Positions 50,264 through 63,899 of a DNA stretch of 64,000 nt are shown here, piece after piece. Within the stretch, counting starts at the first letter, position 1; each line of letters starts with the position of its first letter. Source of the stretch: Epilithonimonas zeae. Lineage in GTDB: Bacteria; Bacteroidota; Bacteroidia; Flavobacteriales; Weeksellaceae. Both the position numbers and the translations under genes were made by a program. The notes beneath the pieces were generated by a model. The model did not search any database. It saw only the letters and a program-made list of their open reading frames with translations, and was not told where the DNA came from. The stretch lies in contig NZ_FSRK01000002.1 of NCBI RefSeq assembly GCF_900141765.1, positions 372,001-436,000 of the forward strand. Reading direction: 5' to 3'.

Positions 50264-50962
50264 TTATATCCAAAAATATATTTTCAGAATAGCAGATAAA
50301 ATTGTGATACTTCTGCTAAAACCAATGGTTCTTCTGTTCAGTCGTTTCAAATGGTTTCTCAACGTGAGATCTATTCTTTCAATGCCATTCGTTCCATATC
50401 TTTTGGTGTTATGAATCGATTTCGGAATCAGATATTAATAGTTCTTCAGTTGGTCTGTGAATATTGTTGCTGCTCTGGCATTCAATAAGGTTTTCACAAC
50501 AGCGTTGAGAGTTTGATTATTTCTTTTTCCAATATAGAATGCTGCGGTTTCTCTCGTCACCTTATCAATTGCATAAACCAGCCACATCGGGTTGCTCTTT
50601 TTCATGATAAAAAACCGTATCTCATCACGTTCATAAGTCTTTCCGAATGATAGTACAGGAGGTATAATATTTTCTGCTATGTTCTTAATTCTTCTGAGCA
50701 ATGTCATAATAGAGATTTTTAAAACCCTTACCACAGAACGGATACCAAGACCTTCTTTGGTTAATTGGATAATTGATGGATTGATATTAGAGTGATAAGC
50801 TTTATAAGTATAATAATCCAAAAATCTCTTGTGACATTCTTTACAAATATATTGTTGCTTTCTGGTTTTTGTAGTTCCATTTCTAATGATTCTGCCTGAG
50901 TAGCAAAATGGACAAATTCTTGTATCACTAACTTTAGTACATCTATGATGATTCTCAATCAT
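50264..50962 (-). pseudogene. IS1-family transposase interrupted by in-frame TAA
   Basis: The frame reads MIENHHRCTKVSDTRICPFC with a zinc-ribbon-like start (CPFC...CKEC), then the catalytic domain MWLVYAIDKVTRETAAFYIG and IFTDQLKNY. It stops at TAA 50435-50437 (codon 176). The reading continues in the same frame through YLIPKSIHNTKRYGTN, LTLRNHLKRLNRRTI and ILSAILKIYFW to a natural TAA at 50264. This gives about 232 codons in all, normal for IS1-type transposases. A single base change explains the stop. The upstream TTG at 50968 is also in frame. Confidence 0.82.
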
Positions 50963-50988
50963 TTGCAATCTGTTTTTTCTCCAAAAAT

Positions 50989-51229: not shown

Positions 51230-52054
51230 CTATAATTGTACTTTGCTAGAAGTCCTATTTTTATAGTGCCGCAATAAATAGTCGTAAACAATCATTTCAA
51301 ACAATCGCTGATTTGAAACAAATGTTCTGTTGATATGCATATGGAAAATGCTTTGGAAAAATCCCGATAATGGATTTTGACTGCTTTGAATGACACTTTT
51401 AATAGCATTATTGCTCTCACTAATATTTGAAATAATTAGATTCCTAATATCAACGAATTCATTAGAATTTACGAAATCTAAATATTGGGGTTTAAATAAT
51501 CTGAATTTTTGATCTAATTGTCGGTTGAGGTTTTTATCAGCATTAAACTCATTCTTAAAGGCGGTATTGTAATCGCTGATCCATTCTAATTTTTCCTCAT
51601 TCGATAGTTTTATTTCTGAAAGAAGCATGTCAATGTAAAACATTGAAACCATAAGCTTTTCTTCATCATCATAATCCAAAAAATTTAAAATCAATTCACT
51701 GCTTTTAAAGAATAAATGTTCAGCATATTCAATTGTACTTTCTCCATACCTTTCGATTTCCCGAACATAAGAATCTATTACGAAATTTGATATTTCTCCT
51801 GAAGCAATGAAATCTTTAATTACGCTATTTATATTCTCTAAAGCGTTTCGGTATGTAAGTTTTAAACGCAGTCTTAGATGGGGTATAGGATCAGTATAAC
51901 GGATAAAGAACCATTGATTTATATACTTTTTTTCCTTAAAATATTTCAATAACGGAATAATCGCTTCTTGTAGAATGCCATCAGAAGTCTTTACACCAGT
52001 ATATATTTTTAGATAAAGCCATTCACTTCCTGGGAGAAATTTTCTAATTGTCAT
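51230..52054 (-). CDS. Thiopeptide-type / lantibiotic dehydratase elimination-domain protein (LanB-C like)
   Basis: 274 aa, the stand-alone form of the C-terminal LanB domain (SpaB_C). It begins MTIRKFLPGSEWLYLKIYTG, and has the conserved WFFIRYTDPIPHLRLRLK and the ERYGESTIEYAEHLFF region near residue 108. In class I lanthipeptide and thiopeptide pathways this domain removes glutamate from glutamylated Ser/Thr to give dehydroamino acids. Its ATG overlaps the stop of the glutamylation gene by one base (TAATG on the minus strand), so the two parts are translated together. Confidence 0.9.
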   Translation of the reverse strand: MTIRKFLPGSEWLYLKIYTGVKTSDGILQEAIIPLLKYFKEKKYINQWFFIRYTDPIPHLRLRLKLTYRNALENINSVIKDFIASGEISNFVIDSYVREIERYGESTIEYAEHLFFKSSELILNFLDYDDEEKLMVSMFYIDMLLSEIKLSNEEKLEWISDYNTAFKNEFNADKNLNRQLDQKFRLFKPQYLDFVNSNEFVDIRNLIISNISESNNAIKSVIQSSQNPLSGFFQSIFHMHINRTFVSNQRLFEMIVYDYLLRHYKNRTSSKVQL

Positions 52055-54228
52055 TAATTAAAATTTTTATAAATCGGAAAAATAAATTGATGCGTGAAAT
52101 TGTGGTGCTCATTGTACAAAAATTCTTCAATGATAATCTCTTTTTCATTTTTTACAGAACTTAAAAACATGACTAACAAATCTTCGTTTTCCAGATTTAC
52201 CAACAGAGTATTATCAGATTCAACCCATTGAATCCATTTTGGGATTTGTCTCTTTTTTCTCCAGTCTTCTATTTCTTTTATTAATAAATATTTATTCTCA
52301 TTATTTAGTAGGGAGACGAAGTGGTTTATTTCTTCGGGATTTACTTTCCATTGGGATTTTGACAGAATGATATTTTCATACGTTACTCTTGGCAGAAAAT
52401 TATAAATATGAGCCAAACCTCCCCAATTAAAAGAAAGACTTGAACGTGTGTTTTGCATATTCAAATCACAAAGAAAATGATAGATCGGCAGAGAGTTAGA
52501 AGAATAATTATGCGCGTTGGTCAAATAGGGTATTATCTCTTTATTGTGTTTTTTTGAACGCAATATGACCTGATTATTTTTTATTGAAATATATAAGTCA
52601 TCAACTGTAATTTGCTGCTCATCAGGCAAAAGAGATTTCGCCAGGTATGGAATTTCGTAATTTCTTACTTCGGGTCTTCTGAGAATATTCCCGATTCTGG
52701 ATTCAGGAAGGTGTATGATCTCTGCATGGATCTGATCAGGACTTAGCTTTTCTTCTTTCATAGCAATTTCTTCTACCAGTTCCTGGATTTTTGATTTTTC
52801 TGAACAGAATCTTGCTAATAATTTTCCGGCATTTCCACTTCCGCCATTTAAAAATAATATTTCTTGGTTATTTTCTGAAATAATCTCTGTCATAAAAGAC
52901 ATCGTTTCCGGCAAATCGTCCCAGTTTTCTTCAAAGCATTTGAAATCATTATCCGAAAGTTCTATTGTACTTTTTCTGTCTGAGATGGCTTCCTGAATTT
53001 TTTGATTAAGAATGATCTGAACTGTGTTAAGTTTAATTTCCAATCCTGCCTTTTCTTTAGATGTGGGAATTATCAGATCTTCTAAGTACGGATGAACTCC
53101 TTTGGTATCAAAATCCTGCCGATAACCGGTTCCGGCTTCTGTGTCTAAAGCAAAAGACAATGAAACTTCTTCAGATTCAAATCTGTCATAAAATGTTTTT
53201 TTGAATTTTTCTAAGTGGGTATCATTATTTTTTTGTGTGAGTTTATTGAGAAATGAAATGCCTTTTTTAAGCGTTTTTTTCCAGTGAAAAGACAAATTTA
53301 TTTCGGTATCATAATAAAGATCTGTCTGGAAAAGGTATTTCTGTTCATAATCAACGTTTAATGATTGGATAAGTTTTTCGATTTCAGAATAGGAAGAAGC
53401 TGGATTTCCAAAACAAGAATCCAGGCCGTTGATTTTATTTTGAATTGAAATTAGAATATCTCTTTCCTTTTCTGCTCCAATTTTATCTAAAACAGAAATA
53501 ATTGATTCTGAAAAATCAACGCCTTCAACATTCGGTTCAAGCTCACTTACCAAAACCTGATTGTCAATAAGTTCTTCTAAAAATTCTAAAGCTTCTTCTG
53601 AAGATATTGCATCATTAATAAGAATATCTTTTATCTGATACAAAGTTTTTCCCTGTTTGGAAAAATTTAATATTTGTTCTAATTCTTCTGAAAGTGGAGC
53701 AGAGGAGATAATGTAATCCCTTTTCCCGTCATTGTTTTCATATTCCACAAATCGGATTTTGTTGCCAACTTTGTAGATGCTGTTATTTGGAAAGAATAAT
53801 AAATTATTTCTTATTCCAGATAATTTTTCAAGAGACTTTGCTAACGAAACAAGAAAATGCATATCCAGTTTTGTGTCACGAATAAGTCCTCGCAAAGTCG
53901 GATTATCATTCTCAAATTGTCCCAGACCAACACCCGAAAACAAACCAAAAGGTGTACATCTGTTGCTGATTCGGCCGTAATATTTTAGTATTGTATTTTT
54001 GAGTTTTGTAGGCAATTCTTTTCGTGAAAGATGCCATCGGTTTATCTCGTCATATAAGTAAGGAGAAGCTAAATAAACAGCTTCCAGAAACAATGGATCT
54101 TCACAGATTTCATAGAACTTTTTATCTTCTATTTTATCCTCTGAAAATATAGTCTGAAATTGATTAAAGGGAAACAAAGGACTTCTAAAAACATAATTTT
54201 TACAGAATTGATAAGGAAATTGAGGCAT
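52054..54228 (-). CDS. Lantibiotic dehydratase, N-terminal (glutamylation) part (LanB-N like)
   Basis: 724 aa. This fits the LanB N-terminal family, which uses Glu-tRNA to glutamylate Ser/Thr in a precursor peptide. Recognisable pieces: FLEAVYLASPYLYDEINRW at residue 48, YYGRISNRCTPFGLFSGVGL (typical R-x-S-TPFG-F) near 88, SFHWKKTLKKGISFLNKL, SRIGNILRRPEVRNYEIPYL near 515, and SKKHNKEIIPYLTNAHNYSS near 555. The elimination domain is absent and is encoded separately downstream. It starts 1 bp before the hydrolase stop upstream. Confidence 0.9.
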   Translation of the reverse strand: MPQFPYQFCKNYVFRSPLFPFNQFQTIFSEDKIEDKKFYEICEDPLFLEAVYLASPYLYDEINRWHLSRKELPTKLKNTILKYYGRISNRCTPFGLFSGVGLGQFENDNPTLRGLIRDTKLDMHFLVSLAKSLEKLSGIRNNLLFFPNNSIYKVGNKIRFVEYENNDGKRDYIISSAPLSEELEQILNFSKQGKTLYQIKDILINDAISSEEALEFLEELIDNQVLVSELEPNVEGVDFSESIISVLDKIGAEKERDILISIQNKINGLDSCFGNPASSYSEIEKLIQSLNVDYEQKYLFQTDLYYDTEINLSFHWKKTLKKGISFLNKLTQKNNDTHLEKFKKTFYDRFESEEVSLSFALDTEAGTGYRQDFDTKGVHPYLEDLIIPTSKEKAGLEIKLNTVQIILNQKIQEAISDRKSTIELSDNDFKCFEENWDDLPETMSFMTEIISENNQEILFLNGGSGNAGKLLARFCSEKSKIQELVEEIAMKEEKLSPDQIHAEIIHLPESRIGNILRRPEVRNYEIPYLAKSLLPDEQQITVDDLYISIKNNQVILRSKKHNKEIIPYLTNAHNYSSNSLPIYHFLCDLNMQNTRSSLSFNWGGLAHIYNFLPRVTYENIILSKSQWKVNPEEINHFVSLLNNENKYLLIKEIEDWRKKRQIPKWIQWVESDNTLLVNLENEDLLVMFLSSVKNEKEIIIEEFLYNEHHNFTHQFIFPIYKNFN

Positions 54229-54229
54229 A

Positions 54230-56473
54230 TTATTGTTCTGTAATAGGAAGTTCTATGTAACTGTCATTAAACCATTTGATTTCCAAAAGTTCTTTTGCAT
54301 CCGCCATAGTTTCATTGCTGACATCTTTGCCTGTGCCATAGTTAATTTGCCAAAGAGGACTTTTATTAATCCCTGCCAGTAATAATAATTTGCTGCCTTT
54401 CTCAATTTTTTTACTGATAAAGGAAGTATTTGTAATAGATAGACTTTCCTTTTGATTAGGTATCAGCGCTTGTCTTTTTGCATTGTTTTTTGAATAACTG
54501 GCTCTTCCTGTATAGGATGAGAGCAAAAAATACTTTCCATTAGGAAGAACTTCATATAAAAAAAGGGAAATATCACAGTCTTTTTTGTTAATTGAAAAAC
54601 TTAAATCTCCCGAAAAGCTGCCAGTAAATTCGGCTTCTTTCGTGAAAGGCAGGGTTTCATATTGTAAATAATTTCCTGTATTCAGTAAGCTATCAGTTAC
54701 GATATTGTATTCGTAACGTAATTGTTGATCCACATCTTTTCTATCTGATAAGTCCACACTCAGATTTGAGAATTTTTGCGGTTTACTTTGGTTTTCGGAT
54801 AAAATTAAATTGTCACCTAAATAGTATTTCTTTTTAGTTCTCTCAAAACCGGACATAGAATCTGCGCTTTTCCAAACATTTTTTCCTATCACTTCATAAT
54901 TGATCTTACCTTTTAAAAACTCAGGCTTCTGCTTGTCTTTCAAAATATAGTCAAACCACTCAAAACAAATCTTATTAAGGTTAATATTTGCTACTTCATC
55001 AATCTTTAATCCTTGAACTTCATTTTTTATAAATCCTTGTCCGCCAGAATGATTGTATGGGCCGATAATCAGATAATGATTTGCCTTTTGATTATGTTTT
55101 AGATGATTGTTATAATAAGATAAGGCGCCAATCTGGTCATCATCAAAATAGCCTGTTGTGGTCAATATGGGGATGTTGATTTTTGAAAATTCCTTTTGGT
55201 CAGGTGTCATACCTTGCCAATAACTGTCATAAGAAGGATGTTGAAGCCATCGTTGAAATATTTCGTTACTATTTCCACTAATAGAATCAAGTTTTTTGAA
55301 TGCCTGTCCGCTGGAATACCATTTTTTGTATATATCCTTCCACTTGTCTTCATCAGAAAAACGCTCATCATTGGTAGTTTTGTTGACGGTTACATAATCA
55401 AGCCATTTCGCCATATAACTCATAAAAACATTGTTTACCATCGGATAATCAATGCCTATTCCTACAGCGACTTGTGGTATAATAGTTTTCAAAGCCGGAT
55501 GTAATTTTTTGGCTGCCGCCCATTGGCTGAATCCCAAATAACTACCGCCTATCATCCCGATTTTTCCGTTGCTCCAGGGTTGTTTTATGATCCAGTCAAT
55601 TACTTCGTTGATGTCTTCAGCCTCATGTTCAAAAGGTTCAATTTTATCATTACTTAAATATTTTCCTCTTGCATTGATGTAAACGCACATATAGCCGTTG
55701 CTTGCGATCTCTTTTGCATCATTGATATCATCGGGACTGGAATAAATTGTATTGACAACAATTGTAGATTCCGGTTTTTTTATTTTATTGTTTAAAACGA
55801 CCCTGATACTGATTGAATTTTTAGACCTTGTTTTAATAACAATACTATCTTGCACCAGATAGTGTTTTTTATCCTGCTCCTCAAGAAATTGTCTTGCGTA
55901 TTTAAAAGATGCTTTTGAGACAACATAAGAATTGTATTTTTTACACAATAATATTGCTGTATTTATGTCTACGTTTTCTTTATTATTAAATCTGGATTGC
56001 AATAGATCATAGACTTCTTTTTTTGCCTGGTCTGCATCAATATTGAAATAGTTGGATAAGATTATTTGGGATCTTACTGGTAACGATATATACTTTTTAT
56101 GCAATTCTTCTTTGTACGTATTTGCGAAACCGTTTTTGCTTTTAGAATTTTTTAAAGCATTGATATACACCTCATATTGCATTCCCATCGCACTGGCAAC
56201 TGCAGGACTGCTTTTGATATAAATATTTCGTACGGAATCTATTTGTTTAAGTGCCAGATCATACTTTTTTCTAACCATGTTTATTCTGAAAAGATTATCA
56301 TAATATGTTGCAGAATCTTCTTCGTGATATGAATTGATAATTTCAGAACTTAAGTAATCTAATAGCAGGTTTATTTTAGTAGAATCTGTTTTTTTAAATT
56401 GATTAATTGATATTTTTTGAGAAAATACAATACAACAAAATAAAATGTTAAAAAATATGAGGCATTTTTTCAT
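54230..56473 (-). CDS. CocE/NonD-family S15-type hydrolase, exported
   Basis: 747 aa. Signal MKKCLIFFNILFCCIVFS, an N-terminal helical region of about 180 residues, then an alpha/beta-hydrolase of the X-Pro dipeptidyl-peptidase S15 type: GYMCVYINARGKYLS, IGMIGGSYLGFSQWAAAKKL with Ser nucleophile in GGSYLG near residue 310, Asp and His in ILTTTGYFDDDQIGAL and IIGPYNHSGGQG, and a C-terminal jelly-roll domain. Substrates could be peptides or esters; the catalytic triad looks complete. Second gene of the RiPP operon, 89 bp after the precursor. It may cut or protect against the product; unproven. Confidence 0.88.
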   Translation of the reverse strand: MKKCLIFFNILFCCIVFSQKISINQFKKTDSTKINLLLDYLSSEIINSYHEEDSATYYDNLFRINMVRKKYDLALKQIDSVRNIYIKSSPAVASAMGMQYEVYINALKNSKSKNGFANTYKEELHKKYISLPVRSQIILSNYFNIDADQAKKEVYDLLQSRFNNKENVDINTAILLCKKYNSYVVSKASFKYARQFLEEQDKKHYLVQDSIVIKTRSKNSISIRVVLNNKIKKPESTIVVNTIYSSPDDINDAKEIASNGYMCVYINARGKYLSNDKIEPFEHEAEDINEVIDWIIKQPWSNGKIGMIGGSYLGFSQWAAAKKLHPALKTIIPQVAVGIGIDYPMVNNVFMSYMAKWLDYVTVNKTTNDERFSDEDKWKDIYKKWYSSGQAFKKLDSISGNSNEIFQRWLQHPSYDSYWQGMTPDQKEFSKINIPILTTTGYFDDDQIGALSYYNNHLKHNQKANHYLIIGPYNHSGGQGFIKNEVQGLKIDEVANINLNKICFEWFDYILKDKQKPEFLKGKINYEVIGKNVWKSADSMSGFERTKKKYYLGDNLILSENQSKPQKFSNLSVDLSDRKDVDQQLRYEYNIVTDSLLNTGNYLQYETLPFTKEAEFTGSFSGDLSFSINKKDCDISLFLYEVLPNGKYFLLSSYTGRASYSKNNAKRQALIPNQKESLSITNTSFISKKIEKGSKLLLLAGINKSPLWQINYGTGKDVSNETMADAKELLEIKWFNDSYIELPITEQ

Positions 56474-56562
56474 TGAAATTTTATATACTGGAAGTTAAAA
56501 TACAAAAATCAGTAATCTATTTTTAAATTACTGATCTGATTACAAAAAACTGAATTATTTTC

Positions 56563-56715
56563 TTACGCTGTAGTTACAGTTTTAGGAACTTTTGTTTTAT
56601 CCTTAATTGTTACATCAGGATCTGCACCACCCTTAATAGAATTTAAGTTGGTTAGTTTTGCTAATTGCAGTTTTTTTAGTGATAGCTTTTTTTCGGTAAT
56701 AGTTTGTTTTTTCAT
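56563..56715 (-). CDS. RiPP precursor peptide, double-glycine leader, cysteine-free core
   Basis: 50 aa. The leader MKKQTITEKKLSLKKLQLAK...SIKGG ends in Gly-Gly at residues 29-30 and resembles precursors of Bacteroidetes class I lanthipeptide loci. The putative core, residues 31-50, is ADPDVTIKDKTKVPKTVTTA. It has five Thr, no Ser and no Cys. A dehydratase could make up to five dehydrobutyrines but could not make (methyl)lanthionine. It is the first gene of the operon, with a palindromic site 58 bp upstream. The core length and modification are inferred. Confidence 0.85.
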   Translation of the reverse strand: MKKQTITEKKLSLKKLQLAKLTNLNSIKGGADPDVTIKDKTKVPKTVTTA

Positions 56716-56829: not shown

Positions 56830-58560
56830 TTATTTAGATTTTTCTTGCAGGAGTTTAATATAGTAAGAAGGCAGAGTTCCTGTCATTTTTTTAAATGCAT
56901 TAGAAAATGATTCGGAATTGTTGAATCCAATATCATCTGCAATAGCTGAAATGGTATATTTTCTGATTTTTTCATTGTTGTTTAATTCCTCAACGATATA
57001 ATTAATACGTAATTCATTGAGATATTGGGAAAAATTCTTCCCCTTAATTTCATTGACAGATTTTGACAGATAATCACGATTTGTACCCAAGGTTTTTGCT
57101 AGACTTTCAACTGTAATATTCTTTTGAAGAAAATCTTTGCTGATTTCAAATGCTGTTAATTTTGATTTTATATCTTCTCTCTTCTCACCAGATATAATAT
57201 TTTTCACTTTTTCTTCTTTAGGAATATCTCCCTCGGTAATTTTATTTTCCTGAATAGACAACGACGACGTTTCTTGCGACTTCTCCAATAAAAGCTCAGC
57301 CTGTCTTTGGTATTCTTTTATTTTCTTTTTATTCTCTCTGTATATGTATACTAAAATGAAAATAATTACAAATCCAAATGCTAATACGCCATATAATAAT
57401 TTATTTTTATTATTAAGATCAGTAATCAGATCTTCTTTCTGTTCCAACAAAATTGGAGTATCATATTTTTTGTATATCTCCTTGGATAAATATTGTTTGC
57501 TGTTATTAATGATACTATCTGCATGAAAAAGTTTGTTGATGTACTTCAGCTGATTCTCCTTATCTCCTTTCTTTTTATAGTAATCTATCAGCATCTCATA
57601 ACCATTTCTTGCAACAGGTTCAAAATCATTTGATGTAAATGAAAGAGAATCCGATTTTGTGAAATAGCTTACTGCTTGTTCTTCTTTCCCAATTTCATTA
57701 TTAATCTTACCTAAATAATAATATAAAATTGAAAGGTTAGAGTAATCTTCATTTTTTAGAAGTTGTTTTTCTATTTTCAGAAAATTGTAAGAAGATGCCG
57801 GATAATTTTTAAGATAATAATCTGCAATACCAACAGACATAATCAAATAGGGGTAATGAGTACAATCCTTATATTTTTTACATTCGGAAATACCAAGATT
57901 TGCATAAAGTTTACTGCTTTTATAATCCTTATTTTTATTATAAGCATTTGATAGAGAAAAAATTGAACCTATGTAACTTTTAATATCTTTTTCTTTGGAG
58001 TTTATTTTTCGTTTTTCATAATTATAATATTCAGCAAAAAGAGATAAAGCTTCTTTATTTTCCCCTGTTTCAATTTTTAAAATACCGATCAGCTTTTTAA
58101 TGTAATAAAACTGATCGGTATTTTTATTTCTACTTAGCTTTTGTGCCTCAATATATTGATCTAAAGCTTCATTATATTTAAAACTGTAATTAAATAGGAT
58201 GCCTTTGATGATATAAGCTTTCGCCGGATATAAGTTGGTATCGATATTTTTGGTTAAAGTTATCAGGGTGTCGGCATAAGGGTGTCCGTTCTCGGATTTT
58301 AAGCCTTTGATATGTGCAATTTTATAGTATCCATCGTATAGGAATTCTTTATTTTTTTCTTGTTTTGCTTTCTTTAATATGGTGTTTGCATACAATTCCC
58401 CTTTATTATTATCAATACGAAACACCCTGTCATAATCATTTTGTAATTGGCTGAAATTTCTATTTTTTAAGGAATCAGGTATTTGGAATTCTTTGATACT
58501 TTGTGAAAAATGAAGAGATGGTAATAAAATTGAAAGAAAAAGTAAAAAAAAGTATTTCAT
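56830..58560 (-). CDS. AraC-type regulator with TPR repeats and a membrane anchor
   Basis: 576 aa. Signal peptide MKYFFLLFLSILLPSLHFS, then about 340 residues of helical TPR-like repeats (YDGYYKIAHIKGLK, SYNFLKIEKQLLKN, LYYYLGKINNEIGKEEQAVS), a membrane segment at about residues 384-406 (LLYGVLAFGFVIIFILVYI), a coiled coil, and a C-terminal AraC DNA-binding domain with ITVESLAKTLGTNRDYLSKS and ISAIADDIGFNNSESFSNAF. It would sense something in the periplasm through the TPRs and bind DNA in the cytoplasm. It lies between the two peptide operons, 115 bp from the precursor. Likely regulator of both. Confidence 0.9.
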   Translation of the reverse strand: MKYFFLLFLSILLPSLHFSQSIKEFQIPDSLKNRNFSQLQNDYDRVFRIDNNKGELYANTILKKAKQEKNKEFLYDGYYKIAHIKGLKSENGHPYADTLITLTKNIDTNLYPAKAYIIKGILFNYSFKYNEALDQYIEAQKLSRNKNTDQFYYIKKLIGILKIETGENKEALSLFAEYYNYEKRKINSKEKDIKSYIGSIFSLSNAYNKNKDYKSSKLYANLGISECKKYKDCTHYPYLIMSVGIADYYLKNYPASSYNFLKIEKQLLKNEDYSNLSILYYYLGKINNEIGKEEQAVSYFTKSDSLSFTSNDFEPVARNGYEMLIDYYKKKGDKENQLKYINKLFHADSIINNSKQYLSKEIYKKYDTPILLEQKEDLITDLNNKNKLLYGVLAFGFVIIFILVYIYRENKKKIKEYQRQAELLLEKSQETSSLSIQENKITEGDIPKEEKVKNIISGEKREDIKSKLTAFEISKDFLQKNITVESLAKTLGTNRDYLSKSVNEIKGKNFSQYLNELRINYIVEELNNNEKIRKYTISAIADDIGFNNSESFSNAFKKMTGTLPSYYIKLLQEKSK

Positions 58561-58812: not shown

Positions 58813-58977
58813 ATGAAAAATCTTAAAAAACTTTCAAGAGTTGATTTGAAAACACTAGCAGGGGGTATTACTGGCCGTAAATGGAAATGTTGTGTAGTTG
58901 GTGGAGGATGTAGTGGAACTCAAACAGGAGACTTTAGTGTTTGTAATAAAAACGGTGGTATTGTAGTTTATGCCTAA
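58813..58977 (+). CDS. Four-cysteine double-glycine peptide (bacteriocin-like), copy 1
   Basis: 54 aa, too short for a normal gene call. Leader MKNLKKLSRVDLKTLAGG ends in Gly-Gly at residues 17-18, the type cut by C39 peptidases. The predicted mature peptide (residues 19-54, ITGRKWKCCVVGGGCSG...) has Cys at positions 26, 27, 33 and 44 of the precursor. Four cysteines and the downstream VKOR-Trx protein suggest two disulfides. NCBI-type name for this class is bacteriocin-like protein; activity unproven. Its 5' UTR and leader are duplicated in copy 2. Confidence 0.85.
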   Translation: MKNLKKLSRVDLKTLAGGITGRKWKCCVVGGGCSGTQTGDFSVCNKNGGIVVYA

Positions 58978-59115: not shown

Positions 59116-59292
59116 ATGAAAAATCTTAAAAAACTTTCTAGAGCAGAGATGCTAACAGTTAATGGTGGAACCTGGGGCTGGTGGGCGTGTTGTAGCGCTT
59201 CCGCTTGTAGCACAGCAACTTATGGGAATTCTACTGATTTGGTATGTGTAACCAAAGGAACTTCGCTACGAATGGTGGCTAGTCCAATATAA
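59116..59292 (+). CDS. Four-cysteine double-glycine peptide (bacteriocin-like), copy 2
   Basis: 58 aa. Leader MKNLKKLSRAEMLTVNGG with Gly-Gly at 17-18, nearly the same as copy 1. Mature part TWGWWACCSASACSTA... has Cys at residues 25, 26, 31 and 44, so the CC...C...C pattern is kept with shifted third and aligned fourth Cys. It is richer in Trp at the start than copy 1. Both leaders begin with the same 26 bases ATGAAAAATCTTAAAAAAC..., and the AT-rich 5' UTRs match too. A terminator follows at 59296. Confidence 0.85.
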   Translation: MKNLKKLSRAEMLTVNGGTWGWWACCSASACSTATYGNSTDLVCVTKGTSLRMVASPI

Positions 59293-60194: not shown

Positions 60195-61711
60195 TGGGAT
60201 CGAAGCAAATTATTTCTAAATTAGGCATTAATTCACAAGAGTTTAATTTTCAGTTCCAATCCCACCCAGATTATCCTTCTGTACTAGCTTTCAGTGATAC
60301 ACTTAATTTTTTGAGTGTAAAGAATGAAGCTTACGAATTAAAGAAAGAACATTGGGAGGAATTGCCTGAGGAATTTATCACAATCTATAATGATAATTTC
60401 GCTTTAGTGAAAAAAGAAGAGTCTGGGATAAAAGTTTTTTCTGATGACGTACAAAATGTTTCCAAAGAAAAACTTTATGAAAATTCAACAGATTTTGTTC
60501 TACTGTTTGAGAAAGAAAATATTTCAAAAGAGAAGAAAATTTTCAATTTTTATTGGTTGTTTAATGGGTTTTTAATTTTTATTTTTGGATATTCTTTATT
60601 CTTTTTAAATTTACAAAATACACTTTTCAATCTACTTTCGATAGTAGGATTGTTTATTTCATTTGAAATCATTCGCAAAAAATTCGGGGATAAGTCTACC
60701 ATTATTAAAAATATATGTGGAAGTAGTGCAACAAATACAACCGCTAAAAATGATTGCAATAAAATTATAAATGCGGATAAAACCGATATTCTTGGATTGA
60801 AATTATCGGATCTTGGTTTATTATATTTTAGCGCATTATTGGTTTTGGGAATTTTCAGCCCTTTTACAGATTCTGTCCTAAAATTTTTGTCGTTTGTTTC
60901 CTGTTTAGTAATTGCTTATTCACTTGTGATACAAATTTTTATAGAAAAGGTTCTTTGTAAGGTTTGTTTATTAATCATCGGTATTTTAATTGGGCAAATT
61001 ATTATTTCTTCTTTATATTTTGGAAATGCGATAATATTGAATACTATTGCGTTGTCTGCATTAGCATTTTTAGTTTTATTTTTCGCATTGGTATTCATTA
61101 ATAACCTTATAAAGCAAAAAGAAGAATATAAAAAATCCGATATTAAAAACTTAAAATTTAAACGTAATTATGGAATTTTTAAACGGGAATTATTAGAAAA
61201 AAATCGAATAATTTTTCAAAGTACAGAAATTTTCCGACTTGGAAAATCTGATGCACGACTTCACATTTCTTTGGTTTCAAATCCATATTGCGGTTTTTGT
61301 AAAGAAGCTCATAGTATTTTGGAAAAACTTTTGGAAAAGTATCCTGATGATATTTCTGCGCAGATCCGTTTTAATTATTTTCCGGATGCAGCCAATTCAA
61401 ATTATAAAAATTTAATAAATGATTTCTTGTACGTTTATAATAAAAAAAATAGAGAGCTTATAAAATCCGTGGATTATTGGTTTGAGCATAAGAACGAAAA
61501 AAAATTAAGAGAATATTATAATTCTCAATTACATAATTCTGATTTGACTGAAATTCTAAATATATCTATTGAAAATGAAGGCCAAGGCCTCAATTTTACT
61601 CCAGTTTTCTTAATAAATGGATATCCGTTCCCAGACAAATACGATCGTAAAGATATTTTCTATTTTGTGGAAGAACTACTTGAAGACGAAGAAATCATAA
61701 ATGAAGCATAA
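60194..61711 (+). CDS. Vitamin K epoxide reductase-thioredoxin fusion (disulfide-forming)
   Basis: 505 aa. The first about 115 residues look like a degenerate C39-peptidase-like domain (HPDYPSVLAFSDTLNFL...) with no catalytic Cys. Five membrane helices of a VKOR domain follow, with the loop pair Cys 175 and Cys 188 and the CxxC pair Cys 255 and Cys 258 (LCKVCLL). A C-terminal thioredoxin-like domain has the CxxC at Cys 366 and Cys 369 (YCGFCK). This is the cysteine set of a quinone-linked disulfide generator. It would oxidise exported cysteine peptides. It overlaps the ABC gene by 11 bp. Confidence 0.9.
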   Translation: MGSKQIISKLGINSQEFNFQFQSHPDYPSVLAFSDTLNFLSVKNEAYELKKEHWEELPEEFITIYNDNFALVKKEESGIKVFSDDVQNVSKEKLYENSTDFVLLFEKENISKEKKIFNFYWLFNGFLIFIFGYSLFFLNLQNTLFNLLSIVGLFISFEIIRKKFGDKSTIIKNICGSSATNTTAKNDCNKIINADKTDILGLKLSDLGLLYFSALLVLGIFSPFTDSVLKFLSFVSCLVIAYSLVIQIFIEKVLCKVCLLIIGILIGQIIISSLYFGNAIILNTIALSALAFLVLFFALVFINNLIKQKEEYKKSDIKNLKFKRNYGIFKRELLEKNRIIFQSTEIFRLGKSDARLHISLVSNPYCGFCKEAHSILEKLLEKYPDDISAQIRFNYFPDAANSNYKNLINDFLYVYNKKNRELIKSVDYWFEHKNEKKLREYYNSQLHNSDLTEILNISIENEGQGLNFTPVFLINGYPFPDKYDRKDIFYFVEELLEDEEIINEA

Positions 61712-63899
61712 AAATTTTCCTTTCTACCTCCAACCCGACACCAAAGACTGTGGCCCTACCTGCCTTCGTATCATCGCCAAATACTATGGTAAAACCATTC
61801 CGCTGCAACAGGTACGAAATCTTTCCGAGACCACAAGAGAAGGCAGCAGTTTACTGGGACTTAGTAATGCCGCGGAGAACCTGGGTTTTAGGTCCCTTGG
61901 AGTTCAGATAGATTATAATACATTGGTAGAGGAAGTTCCGTTTCCGTGCATTATCCATTGGAATAAGCAGCATTTTGTAGTTGTTTATAAAATTGACAAA
62001 TTAGGTCAGGTTCATATTTCCGATCCAAGCTATGGATTGATAACCTACGGAAAAGAGGAATTCATCAAATCTTGGATTGGAGAGAATGCGGGTGAAGCTA
62101 CAGAAGAAGGTATTGCTTTAATTCTGGAAACCACGCCTGCTTTCTTCAAAAACGAATTTGATGAACAGGAAAGCAAAGCCACTTTTTCCTTTCTGTCGAA
62201 ATATGTATTGAAATACAAATCTCTTGTTATTCAGCTTGCAGTCGGACTTTTAGCAGGAAGTTTAATGTCTCTGATCCTTCCTTTCCTTACCCAAAGTATT
62301 GTAGATGTCGGGATCCAGAACCAGGATCTTAATTTTATCTACTTGGTTCTGCTTGCACAGGTTCTGCTTTTTTTAGGAAGAATGGGAATTGAGGTTATAA
62401 GAAGCTGGATTTTGCTGCATCTCTCTGCCAGGATCAATATTTCCATCATCTCAGATTTCTTTATAAAATTAATGAAACTTCCCATAAGTTTCTTTGACAC
62501 CAGAATGACGGGAGATATAATGCAACGGATCAACGATCATCACAGGATTGAGCAACTTTTGACAACTTCCTCTCTCAGCACATTATTCTCTCTTGTTAAT
62601 CTGATTATTTTCAGTATCGTATTGCTATTTTATGATTACAGGTTATTTCTGGTTTATCTGATTGGCGCTACCTTATATATTGCATGGATTACATTTTTCC
62701 TTAAAAAACGAAAAGAACTGGATTACAAAAGATTCTCTCAGATCTCTCAGGAACAGAGTAAAGTGATAGAGCTTATCAACGGAATGCAGGAAATAAAAAT
62801 GCACAATGCAGAAAAGAAAAAACGTTGGGACTGGGAGTTTTTGCAGGTTAAATTATTCAAAATCCAGATCAAATCTTTGTCATTGGAACAATGGCAATCT
62901 GTTGGTGGAAACTTCATCAACCAGATAAAAGATATTCTGGTGAGTTTTCTTGCTGCCAAATTAGTTTTGACTGGAAGCCTTACGTTAGGAATGATGCTTT
63001 CTGTACAATACATTGTCGGACAACTGAATAGTCCGCTAACACAGCTGATTGATTTTATCAAGCAAACCCAAGATGCTAAGATTTCACTCGAGAGATTGGG
63101 AGAAATTCACGATAAAGAAGATGAAGAAAGCGCCGAAGAACATTTTACTTCCGAAATTCCCCAAAAAGATATAGAAATACAGAACATGTCGTTTCGATAC
63201 ATAGGTTCAGATGCTTTTGTTTTTGAAAATCTGAGTTTAAATATCCCTTATCAAAAAACAACGGCCATTGTTGGAGCCAGTGGAAGCGGGAAAACAACTT
63301 TATTAAAATTATTAATGAAGTTTTACGAACCTAATGTTGGAGATATCAAATTGGGAAGTACAAATCTTCAAAATATTTCTCCAAGAATCTGGCGGAATCA
63401 TTGCGGCGTTGTGATGCAGGACGGTTATATTTTCAATGACACGATTGCACAGAATATTGCAGTAGGAGAAGATTATATTGACAAACAAAAATTAAGGAAA
63501 GCTGTAGAAATTGCAAATATCAAAGATTTTGTTGAAGGCTTGCCACTAAGCTACAATACGAAAATCGGAAATGAAGGTGTTGGCGTAAGTGGCGGGCAGA
63601 GACAAAGATTGTTCATAGCCAGAGCCGTTTACAAATCCCCTGAATATATCTTTTTTGATGAAGCAACTTCTGCTCTTGATGCCAACAATGAAAAGGTAAT
63701 TATGGAAAATCTGGAACAATTCTTCAAAGGTAAAACAGCCGTTGTGATTGCTCACAGATTATCTACAGTAAAACACGCCGACAAAATTATCGTTCTGGAC
63801 AAGGGAAAATTAGTAGAAGAAGGGAACCATTCGGAATTGGTTGCAAAAAGAGGAGAATATTATAGACTAGTTAAAAATCAATTGGAACTTGGAAACTAA
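61701..63899 (+). CDS. C39-peptidase-domain ABC exporter
   Basis: 732 aa. The N-terminal C39 peptidase has YLQPDTKDCGPTCLRIIAKY with catalytic Cys 17, PCIIHWNKQHFVVVY with the His, and ISDPSYG with the Asp. Six membrane helices (about residues 170-440) and an ATPase follow: Walker A GASGSGKTT, signature GVSGGQRQRLFIARA, Walker B YIFFDEATSALD, H-loop VIAHRLST. It would cut double-glycine leaders and export the peptides. Base use is clearly more GC-rich than in the two genes before it. The likely cargo is the pair at 58813 and 59116, and possibly the RiPP at 56563. Confidence 0.95.
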   Translation: MKHKNFPFYLQPDTKDCGPTCLRIIAKYYGKTIPLQQVRNLSETTREGSSLLGLSNAAENLGFRSLGVQIDYNTLVEEVPFPCIIHWNKQHFVVVYKIDKLGQVHISDPSYGLITYGKEEFIKSWIGENAGEATEEGIALILETTPAFFKNEFDEQESKATFSFLSKYVLKYKSLVIQLAVGLLAGSLMSLILPFLTQSIVDVGIQNQDLNFIYLVLLAQVLLFLGRMGIEVIRSWILLHLSARINISIISDFFIKLMKLPISFFDTRMTGDIMQRINDHHRIEQLLTTSSLSTLFSLVNLIIFSIVLLFYDYRLFLVYLIGATLYIAWITFFLKKRKELDYKRFSQISQEQSKVIELINGMQEIKMHNAEKKKRWDWEFLQVKLFKIQIKSLSLEQWQSVGGNFINQIKDILVSFLAAKLVLTGSLTLGMMLSVQYIVGQLNSPLTQLIDFIKQTQDAKISLERLGEIHDKEDEESAEEHFTSEIPQKDIEIQNMSFRYIGSDAFVFENLSLNIPYQKTTAIVGASGSGKTTLLKLLMKFYEPNVGDIKLGSTNLQNISPRIWRNHCGVVMQDGYIFNDTIAQNIAVGEDYIDKQKLRKAVEIANIKDFVEGLPLSYNTKIGNEGVGVSGGQRQRLFIARAVYKSPEYIFFDEATSALDANNEKVIMENLEQFFKGKTAVVIAHRLSTVKHADKIIVLDKGKLVEEGNHSELVAKRGEYYRLVKNQLELGN

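Follow-up and report, generated by a model that had tools for sequence, protein, structure and literature searches.

A split LanB operon without LanC in Epilithonimonas zeae that may make a linear dehydrated peptide sensed by its producers

Results

The operon and its genome

The window analysed here is a stretch of 64,000 nucleotides from Epilithonimonas zeae (family Weeksellaceae; assembly GCF_900141765.1, contig NZ_FSRK01000002.1, positions 372,001 to 436,000). On its minus strand lies an operon for a ribosomally synthesised and post-translationally modified peptide (RiPP), which reads, from 5' to 3', TPR-AraC regulator, precursor, S15/CocE-type hydrolase, LanB glutamylation protein (LanB-N) and LanB elimination protein (LanB-C) (Table 1). 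An earlier note on this DNA, written from the letters and their open reading frames (ORFs), had listed the genes from precursor to LanB-C; all were confirmed at their minus-strand positions, with domain matches far beyond chance. What it had missed is the AraC/TPR membrane regulator gene, which lies on the same strand as the precursor gene and 115 bp upstream of it; the operon probably extends to 58560 and takes this gene in. The hydrolase and LanB-N genes are 1 bp apart, and the LanB-N and LanB-C genes overlap by one base.

In profile searches, the genome (4.08 Mb, 4 contigs, completeness rating 100%) gave a single match to each LanB profile, PF04738 and PF14028, and none to the LanC profile PF05147, in keeping with the note, which had seen no LanC in the operon. 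A LanC elsewhere in the genome was thereby discarded, as was a YcaO-linked pathway, since PF02624 found no match in the genome either. The leader model NF038153 had one match in the genome, the operon precursor itself, at a weak 15.2 bits against a curated cut-off of 22; by this weak search, no second precursor with an operon-type leader was found. Measured against class I lanthipeptide systems, both parts of LanB are present, LanC is absent and the window core is devoid of Cys.

Table 1. Features of the operon and its surroundings (positions in the window).
Feature	Position	Strand	Basis
LanB elimination protein (LanB-C), 274 aa	51230..52054	-	PF14028, E 1.8e-60
LanB glutamylation protein (LanB-N), 724 aa	52054..54228	-	PF04738, E 2.5e-129; R86/R90 align with NisB R83/R87
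S15/CocE-NonD hydrolase, 747 aa, signal-like N-terminus	54230..56473	-	PF02129, E 7.5e-42; PF08530, 1e-08
N-terminal helical region of the hydrolase, residues ~31-204	55862..56383	-	structure model, paralogue comparison
Hairpin, 14 bp, then U-rich run, between precursor and hydrolase genes	56506..56537	-	gap folding
Precursor, 50 aa, leader MKKQTITEKKLSLKKLQLAKLTNLNSIKGG, core ADPDVTIKDKTKVPKTVTTA	56563..56715	-	ORF; family leader profile, E 1e-14 (profile itself built from such leaders)
Core region, 5 Thr, 0 Ser, 0 Cys	56566..56625	-	ORF translation
TIKDKT, case of the core motif T[VIL][VILK][DNE]xT	56593..56610	-	motif count
TPR-AraC membrane regulator, 576 aa; would sense the mature peptide	56830..58560	-	PF12833, 1.1e-14; hydropathy
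Two Cys-rich GG peptides, NF047798 'bacteriocin-like' leader	58813-58977 and 59116-59292	+	ORFs, leader model
C39 peptidase ABC transporter	61701..63899	+	PF03412, 5e-34; sole PF03412 match in genome

A clade of split-LanB loci without LanC

Among 246 Weeksellaceae genomes, profile searches found PF04738 in 95 and PF05147 in 60. From 83 listed rows, 80 split-LanB loci whose open frame measures about 700-790 aa were taken, leaving out three listed rows with LanC beside them, short fragments and rows of full-length LanB; with the window, this made 81. A chosen threshold on the LanB score against the window divided them into 66 close loci (at least 777 bits), called the clade below, and 15 distant ones (at most 559 bits). 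A LanB tree (FastTree) later backed this division, separating the two sets with a support of 100. All but two of the 15 distant loci (L093 and L104), thus 13, have PF05147 close to LanB. A LanC profile built from the LanCs of these distant loci matched 2 of the 66 close stretches, L066 and L103, where the position of LanC is next to an adjacent LanB set. No PF05147 match at all was obtained in 27 of the 58 other genomes with a close locus.

Separate glutamylation and elimination proteins had been recognised in the earlier note, and both profiles agree with it. In LanB-C, R61, R63, R102 and H238 align with R784, R786, R826 and H961 of NisB; these, like the LanB-N pair (Table 1), are taken as active-site residues. 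R86 and R90 are invariant in all 66 clade loci. LanB-C lies downstream in 65 of them, with R61, R63 and R102 invariant in the 65 and H238 kept in 64, the exception being L073, whose frame is interrupted. D307 of the window, considered as a further NisB-equivalent residue, proved variable in the clade and was dropped. Judged from the kept residues, the split LanB should be competent for dehydration. Two other roles were set aside: LanB-C as a thiopeptide pyridine synthase like TbtD, as model NF045556 gave 11.2 bits against a cut-off of 325, and LanB-N as a peptide aminoacyl-tRNA ligase (PEARL). A PEARL is a LanB-N-like protein without an elimination partner, and LanB-C adjoins LanB-N in the window and in 65 of the 66 loci.

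At L090, the LanB-N match contains an in-frame stop, and the precursor, sensor and S9 hydrolase genes beside it are open; this locus is either losing LanB or an assembly error. L057, a LanB-N with an S9 gene upstream, lies on the same contig as L116.

Precursors and core peptides

The leader of the window precursor ends in SIKGG and, as the earlier note had read from the ORF (56715-56563), is followed by a core with five Thr and neither Ser nor Cys. In the clade, a leader profile made from 46 leaders detected a precursor in 61 of the 66 loci and none in L041, L056, L057, L072 and L087. At L056 a frame-shifted copy is visible, the contig of L057 ends upstream, and L087 has a degenerate region where the precursor would be expected.

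All 62 distinct clade cores contain Ser or Thr, and none has more than one Cys. The note had called for same-order loci with Cys-free cores. The leader-core boundary of L082 was placed too early, with no effect on its number of Cys; 33 of the 62 cores are Cys-free (14 of 18 from loci with an S15 hydrolase, 18 of 40 from loci with an S9 hydrolase, see below, and 1 of 4 from loci without hydrolase), the other 29 having one Cys. The motif T[VIL][VILK][DNE]xT was present in 13 of 18 S15-type cores, against 0.16 expected from shuffled cores, and in 0 of 40 S9-type cores; it was picked after the cores had been viewed, and the related sequences are non-independent. The linear, dehydrobutyrine (Dhb)-rich product proposed in the note is predicted by the LanB pair, the Cys-free core and the LanC-free genome, that is, from sequence.

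An S15 or S9 hydrolase upstream of LanB

Between precursor and dehydratase, the note had placed an exported alpha/beta hydrolase with a GGSYLG motif, and PF02129 and a signal-like N-terminus are indeed found there. The protein also matches the CocE/NonD model TIGR00976 (1.3e-51), and together with the S15 domain it has the catalytic-type residues: S311 is the nucleophile of the motif, and S311, D444 and H475, which from the family we take to be catalytic, are invariant in 13 aligned sequences. In a Foldseek ranking with its structure model (pLDDT, predicted local distance difference test: mean 75, under 50 in the active-site loops), the nearest folds were those of cocaine esterase and alpha-amino acid ester hydrolases, X-Pro dipeptidyl peptidases ranking lower, and the NCBIfam X-Pro models score far under cut-off. 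The N-terminal helical region is missing from a 600-aa paralogue of the same genome that is 44% identical.

Upstream of LanB, 63 of the 66 clade loci have a hydrolase of 717-755 aa, which in 60 of them is at 100 bp or less or overlaps; the L045 hydrolase is 62 bp off, with a gap, and those of L090 and L041 are about 0.9 and 1.1 kb from LanB. Sequence clustering gave two types, S15 (17, window included) and S9 (46). Eight of the 46 S9-type proteins were scanned with Pfam, and all eight were prolyl oligopeptidases; the best solved matches of the L046 protein were prolyl endopeptidases. By simple patterns, the nucleophile motif was found in 17/17 S15 and 46/46 S9 proteins, the His motif in 17/17 and 34/46, and the Asp motif in 16/17 and 42/46. 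A signal-like N-terminus was present in 17/17 S15 and 44/46 S9 proteins, versus 2/66 LanB-N controls. L041, L131 and L136 carry a hydrolase of each type, S9 and S15; a cassette may have been inserted there next to an older one.

These observations bear on two special roles for the enzyme. LanB intermediates are glutamyl esters, and the fold match of the model with alpha-amino acid ester hydrolases could mean that the S15 hydrolase is such an enzyme, clearing leftover glutamyl esters from Thr. The hydrolases, however, have signal-like N-termini and LanB-N mostly does not, the LanB-C residues are kept, and the S9 alternative would be left unexplained, which makes this role hardly credible. Alternatively, the hydrolase could be a macrocyclase like plant PCY1, giving a head-to-tail cyclic dehydrated peptide, as one S9 member has Peptide cyclase 1 and OphP entries among its sequence matches and 37 of 40 S9-type cores contain Pro. 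This is very unlikely, given that the best matches of that member are ordinary prolyl endopeptidases, that 8 of 18 S15-type cores are Pro-free and that the S15 enzyme resembles CocE and ester hydrolases.

A TPR-AraC regulator beside the precursor

The regulator consists of an N-terminal hydrophobic segment, a TPR domain (residues ~29-352), one membrane span (~388-406) and an AraC helix-turn-helix (458-575); its AlphaFold model (pLDDT 81.7) predicts a TPR superhelix, a long helix and a helix-turn-helix. Foldseek with the TPR domain returned LGN/Pins first and then Rap receptors, several of them solved with their pheromones. The match of the modelled domain to Rap is a fold resemblance, and peptide binding is not implied by it.

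A precursor beside a receptor-like gene, the arrangement of peptide pheromones, was found in 60 of the 66 clade loci: the TPR-AraC gene is at most 1.5 kb from the precursor, actually less than 320 bp (L056 estimated), and in all 60 regulators the predicted membrane span begins at residue 375-416. The exceptions are L039 (2.3 kb), L041 (beyond the S15 gene), L070 (frame in two pieces), L057 (contig end), and L072 and L087, which have no regulator. By the same test, 1 of the 15 other loci was positive, L093, whose sensor belongs to its neighbour L089; in L085 and L091 a TPR-AraC gene is found at about 1.8 kb, and the same stretch has a precursor with a clade-type leader. Mean identity was 57% in the DNA-binding domain of the sensor versus 40% in the TPR domain.

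The window genome contains 34 TPR-AraC matches of any length, the operon's own included, five being near full length. Chance adjacency was rejected because next to the six nearest other paralogues no LanB, S9/S15-type hydrolase or convincing GG peptide was found. Two paralogues of this genome (L193 and L195) stand beside similar ORFs, one of 280 aa on the same strand and one of 480-532 aa, membrane-protein-like, on the opposite strand.

Different histories of the modules

For the 58 loci labelled S9 or S15, the sensor tree requires 2 switches of hydrolase type and each of the LanB trees 10; when all four hydrolase labels are used, the numbers are 6 for the sensor tree and 14 for the LanB-N tree. 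The S15 type as a single lineage of the LanB tree was rejected, since the 81-row tree has 12 changes, of which 9 or more are forced by well-supported branches. Partial Mantel tests, which overstate significance on trees, gave for the S9 set (41 loci) a correlation of hydrolase with sensor distances of 0.87 given LanB (0/2000 permutations), and of hydrolase with LanB distances of -0.11 given the sensor (1752/2000). By the same measure, LanB-C distances go with LanB-N (0.75) more than with the sensor (0.17). For the 15 loci of the S15 set, the hydrolase goes with the core (0.81 given LanB) and with LanB (0.41, 1/2000). Hydrolase type as such appears to follow the sensor rather than LanB.

Eight pairs of loci were compared as DNA, and in four of them similarity ends close to the LanB-N start: from +138 in L097/L103 (sensor 3' end excepted), at +438 in L053/L080, at -26 in L068/L073 and at -23 in L087/L069. 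In the last two pairs the match resumes far upstream; L073 has no hydrolase, and L087 neither sensor nor precursor. In L040/L046 and L043/L046 similarity fades within the hydrolase gene, L035/L041 resembles an insertion, and in L037/L048 exchange was not seen.

In another explanation, the RiPP is an ordinary one, the hydrolase serves only as its leader or core protease, and the regulator is incidental or senses something else. Prolyl oligopeptidase acts in class III lanthipeptide maturation, the enzymes found in the slot are serine hydrolases of the S9 or S15 type, and hydrolase distances in the S15 set go with those of the core. What makes this explanation improbable is the presence of TPR-AraC beside the precursor in 60 of 66 loci, together with an S9 hydrolase tree that follows the sensor tree.

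Loci beyond the clade

A further set of 80 named loci comprised 41 from Chryseobacterium and 39 others, mostly Flavobacteriaceae (LanB 38-44% identical). The 41 Chryseobacterium loci show the same pattern, and are not independent, because many lie on contigs already counted. LanC was found in 27 of the 39 others. Pairs of regulator and precursor are also present in this group: L167 and L177 have them in tandem, and L178 has two (the three loci are on Aquimarina and Dokdonia contigs). Near LanB, each of these three loci has two modules, in which a TPR-AraC regulator precedes a small precursor of its own; LanC is in the stretch of L167 and L178 and was not detected in that of L177. At L172, of Aquimarina longa, LanB-N, LanB-C, regulator, precursor and S9 are consecutive. 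Because the pairs recur among Flavobacteriaceae loci, many of which have LanC, the pairing may predate LanC loss.

Neighbouring genes

As the earlier note had remarked, the operon has no transporter of its own. The genome's only C39 transporter, elsewhere in the window, is the probable exporter and GG protease, acting in trans. It adjoins the two Cys-rich GG peptides, which precede a VKOR-thioredoxin protein and the transporter and start 0.25 and 0.56 kb past the sensor gene, 2.1-2.4 kb from the precursor. Their leader occurs seven times in another genome, G129, in which LanB was not found. They were considered as LanB substrates and rejected, since their leader differs from that of the precursor and is the one seen in G129.

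These peptides, and the single Cys of 29 cores, are what could be adduced for an ordinary lanthipeptide whose cyclase or Cys-rich precursor is encoded elsewhere. The genome without LanC contradicts this unless an unrecognised cyclase exists, the 27 other genomes without PF05147 speak against it likewise, and the peptides carry that other leader; we regard it as the least credible of the explanations.

Between the precursor and hydrolase genes, the gap has a predicted folding energy of -15.5 kcal/mol (z -3.03 versus shuffles), and its hairpin and U-rich run are a possible attenuator favouring the precursor transcript. An IS1-family transposase ORF, possibly truncated, lies directly downstream of the operon (50435-50968, minus strand).

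Discussion

From gene content and its conservation, the absence of LanC, the kept catalytic-type residues and the discordant histories of the modules, all observed in the sequences, we infer a route of dehydration, export, trimming and sensing. We tentatively favour a LanC-independent split-LanB system, in which a linear Dhb peptide would be trimmed by the hydrolase and sensed by the TPR-AraC regulator, the upstream cassette being exchangeable. LanB-N would esterify core Thr with glutamate from glutamyl-tRNA, and LanB-C would eliminate the glutamate, leaving a Dhb-rich peptide; as the core has no Cys and there is no cyclase, the peptide would stay linear. A C39 transporter, most likely that of the window, would cleave after GG and export it. 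Trimming or activation of the peptide by the exported serine hydrolase, S15 in the window and S9 in most relatives, would follow outside the cytoplasm. The mature form would bind the TPR domain on the periplasmic side of the one-span AraC regulator, which would control the operon and perhaps further genes. Sensor, precursor and hydrolase would form a largely exchangeable cassette before the shared LanB pair.

Somewhat more guardedly still, Weeksellaceae may hold a family of uncyclised, LanB-made dehydropeptide pheromones, in which receptor, precursor and S9/S15 peptidase constitute a pherotype cassette swapped before a common LanB pair. With a TPR-AraC gene probably in the operon, a sensed peptide is no less likely than a plain product of the bacteriocin type, and there are hints of a secreted signal rather than an ordinary antibiotic.

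The chief rival is an antibacterial Dhb peptide, with the hydrolase as a periplasmic immunity protein destroying incoming peptide, the TPR-AraC protein as an induction switch, and exchange as toxin-immunity diversification. The same gene set would serve it: an exported hydrolase is tied to sensor and precursor, the upstream block differs where LanB is conserved, and a bacteriocin-like GG set is next door. The arguments against it are weak: no further immunity-like gene was seen among ten scanned window proteins, the loci not having been searched for such genes, and one regulator per precursor, also in some Flavobacteriaceae tandem modules, fits signal-receptor pairs somewhat better. We consider it unlikely, if less so than the other alternatives. 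The earlier note had left open whether the hydrolase is a maturation or an immunity protease; a protease of this kind is plausible from the serine hydrolase upstream of LanB in 63 of 66 loci, with a type that follows the sensor, the link to the sensor being weak in the S15 set.

Several observations weigh against a sensed linear peptide made by an exchangeable cassette. In the S15 set, hydrolase and sensor distances correlate weakly (0.22, 254/2000). Core distances are shared between sensor and LanB: over 59 loci, 0.21 with the sensor given LanB and 0.16 with LanB given the sensor (0/2000 each), in the S9 set 0.21 and 0.22, and in the S15 set 0.17 (288/2000) and 0.38. Linkage of neighbouring genes could explain part of the association, and since one partner is incomplete in both pairs with conserved far flanks, the upstream difference may be loss as well as exchange. 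Likeness of the TPR domain to Rap is generic, LGN/Pins ranking higher. The hydrolase is absent from 3 of 66 loci, LanB-C was not found within 7.8 kb downstream at L057, and at T92, which corresponds to NisB T89, 60 of 66 loci have Thr and 6 have Ile. To these are added the one Cys in 29 of 62 cores and the lack of a dedicated transporter in the operon. Finally, three LanC-type loci (L085, L091 and L101) have a precursor with a clade-type leader about 6 kb from LanB.

If the favoured scheme of a trimmed and sensed Dhb peptide is true, LanB dehydration yields linear dehydrated peptides sensed by their own makers, and Weeksellaceae gain a testable modified-peptide signalling system, with naturally matched sets of sensor, peptide and peptidase. 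No published description of the operon was found in the literature searched, outside which most subscription journals lie.

Among known signalling systems, Rap-Phr has a TPR receptor, and in ComQXPA peptide, processing protein and sensor vary together. The operon regulator shares the TPR receptor fold of the former, and joint variation within the cassette would recall the latter; unlike in either, the receptor would be a one-span AraC regulator in Bacteroidota and the signal would be LanB-modified. With the class III prolyl oligopeptidase, the clade has in common an enzyme of this family tied to a dehydrated peptide, but the clade enzyme has a signal-like N-terminus, is paired with LanB and alternates with S15.

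Goadsporin and thiopeptides are examples of YcaO acting with a split LanB. As in these azole RiPPs and thiopeptides, split-LanB dehydration in the operon would not serve lanthionine, but they rely on YcaO heterocyclases, of which the window genome has none; the pairing of YcaO with a split LanB is described in PMC10676384. In the same bacterial family as the window, the Chryseobacterium class I lanthipeptide ChmABC needed native tRNA-Glu/GluRS for full dehydration in E. coli and was expressed as LanA, LanB and LanC with a core containing Cys (PMC9993889). A large lanthipeptide survey was anchored on LanC by a PF05147 search (PMC7268733), so that LanB systems without LanC would be outside its view. 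The same survey gives pinensin as a class I lanthipeptide cluster with a split LanB (PMC7268733). Pinensin-type clusters thus resemble the operon in their separate glutamylation and elimination proteins, whereas the clade has no LanC, at most one Cys per core, an S9 or S15 hydrolase and a dedicated TPR-AraC gene.

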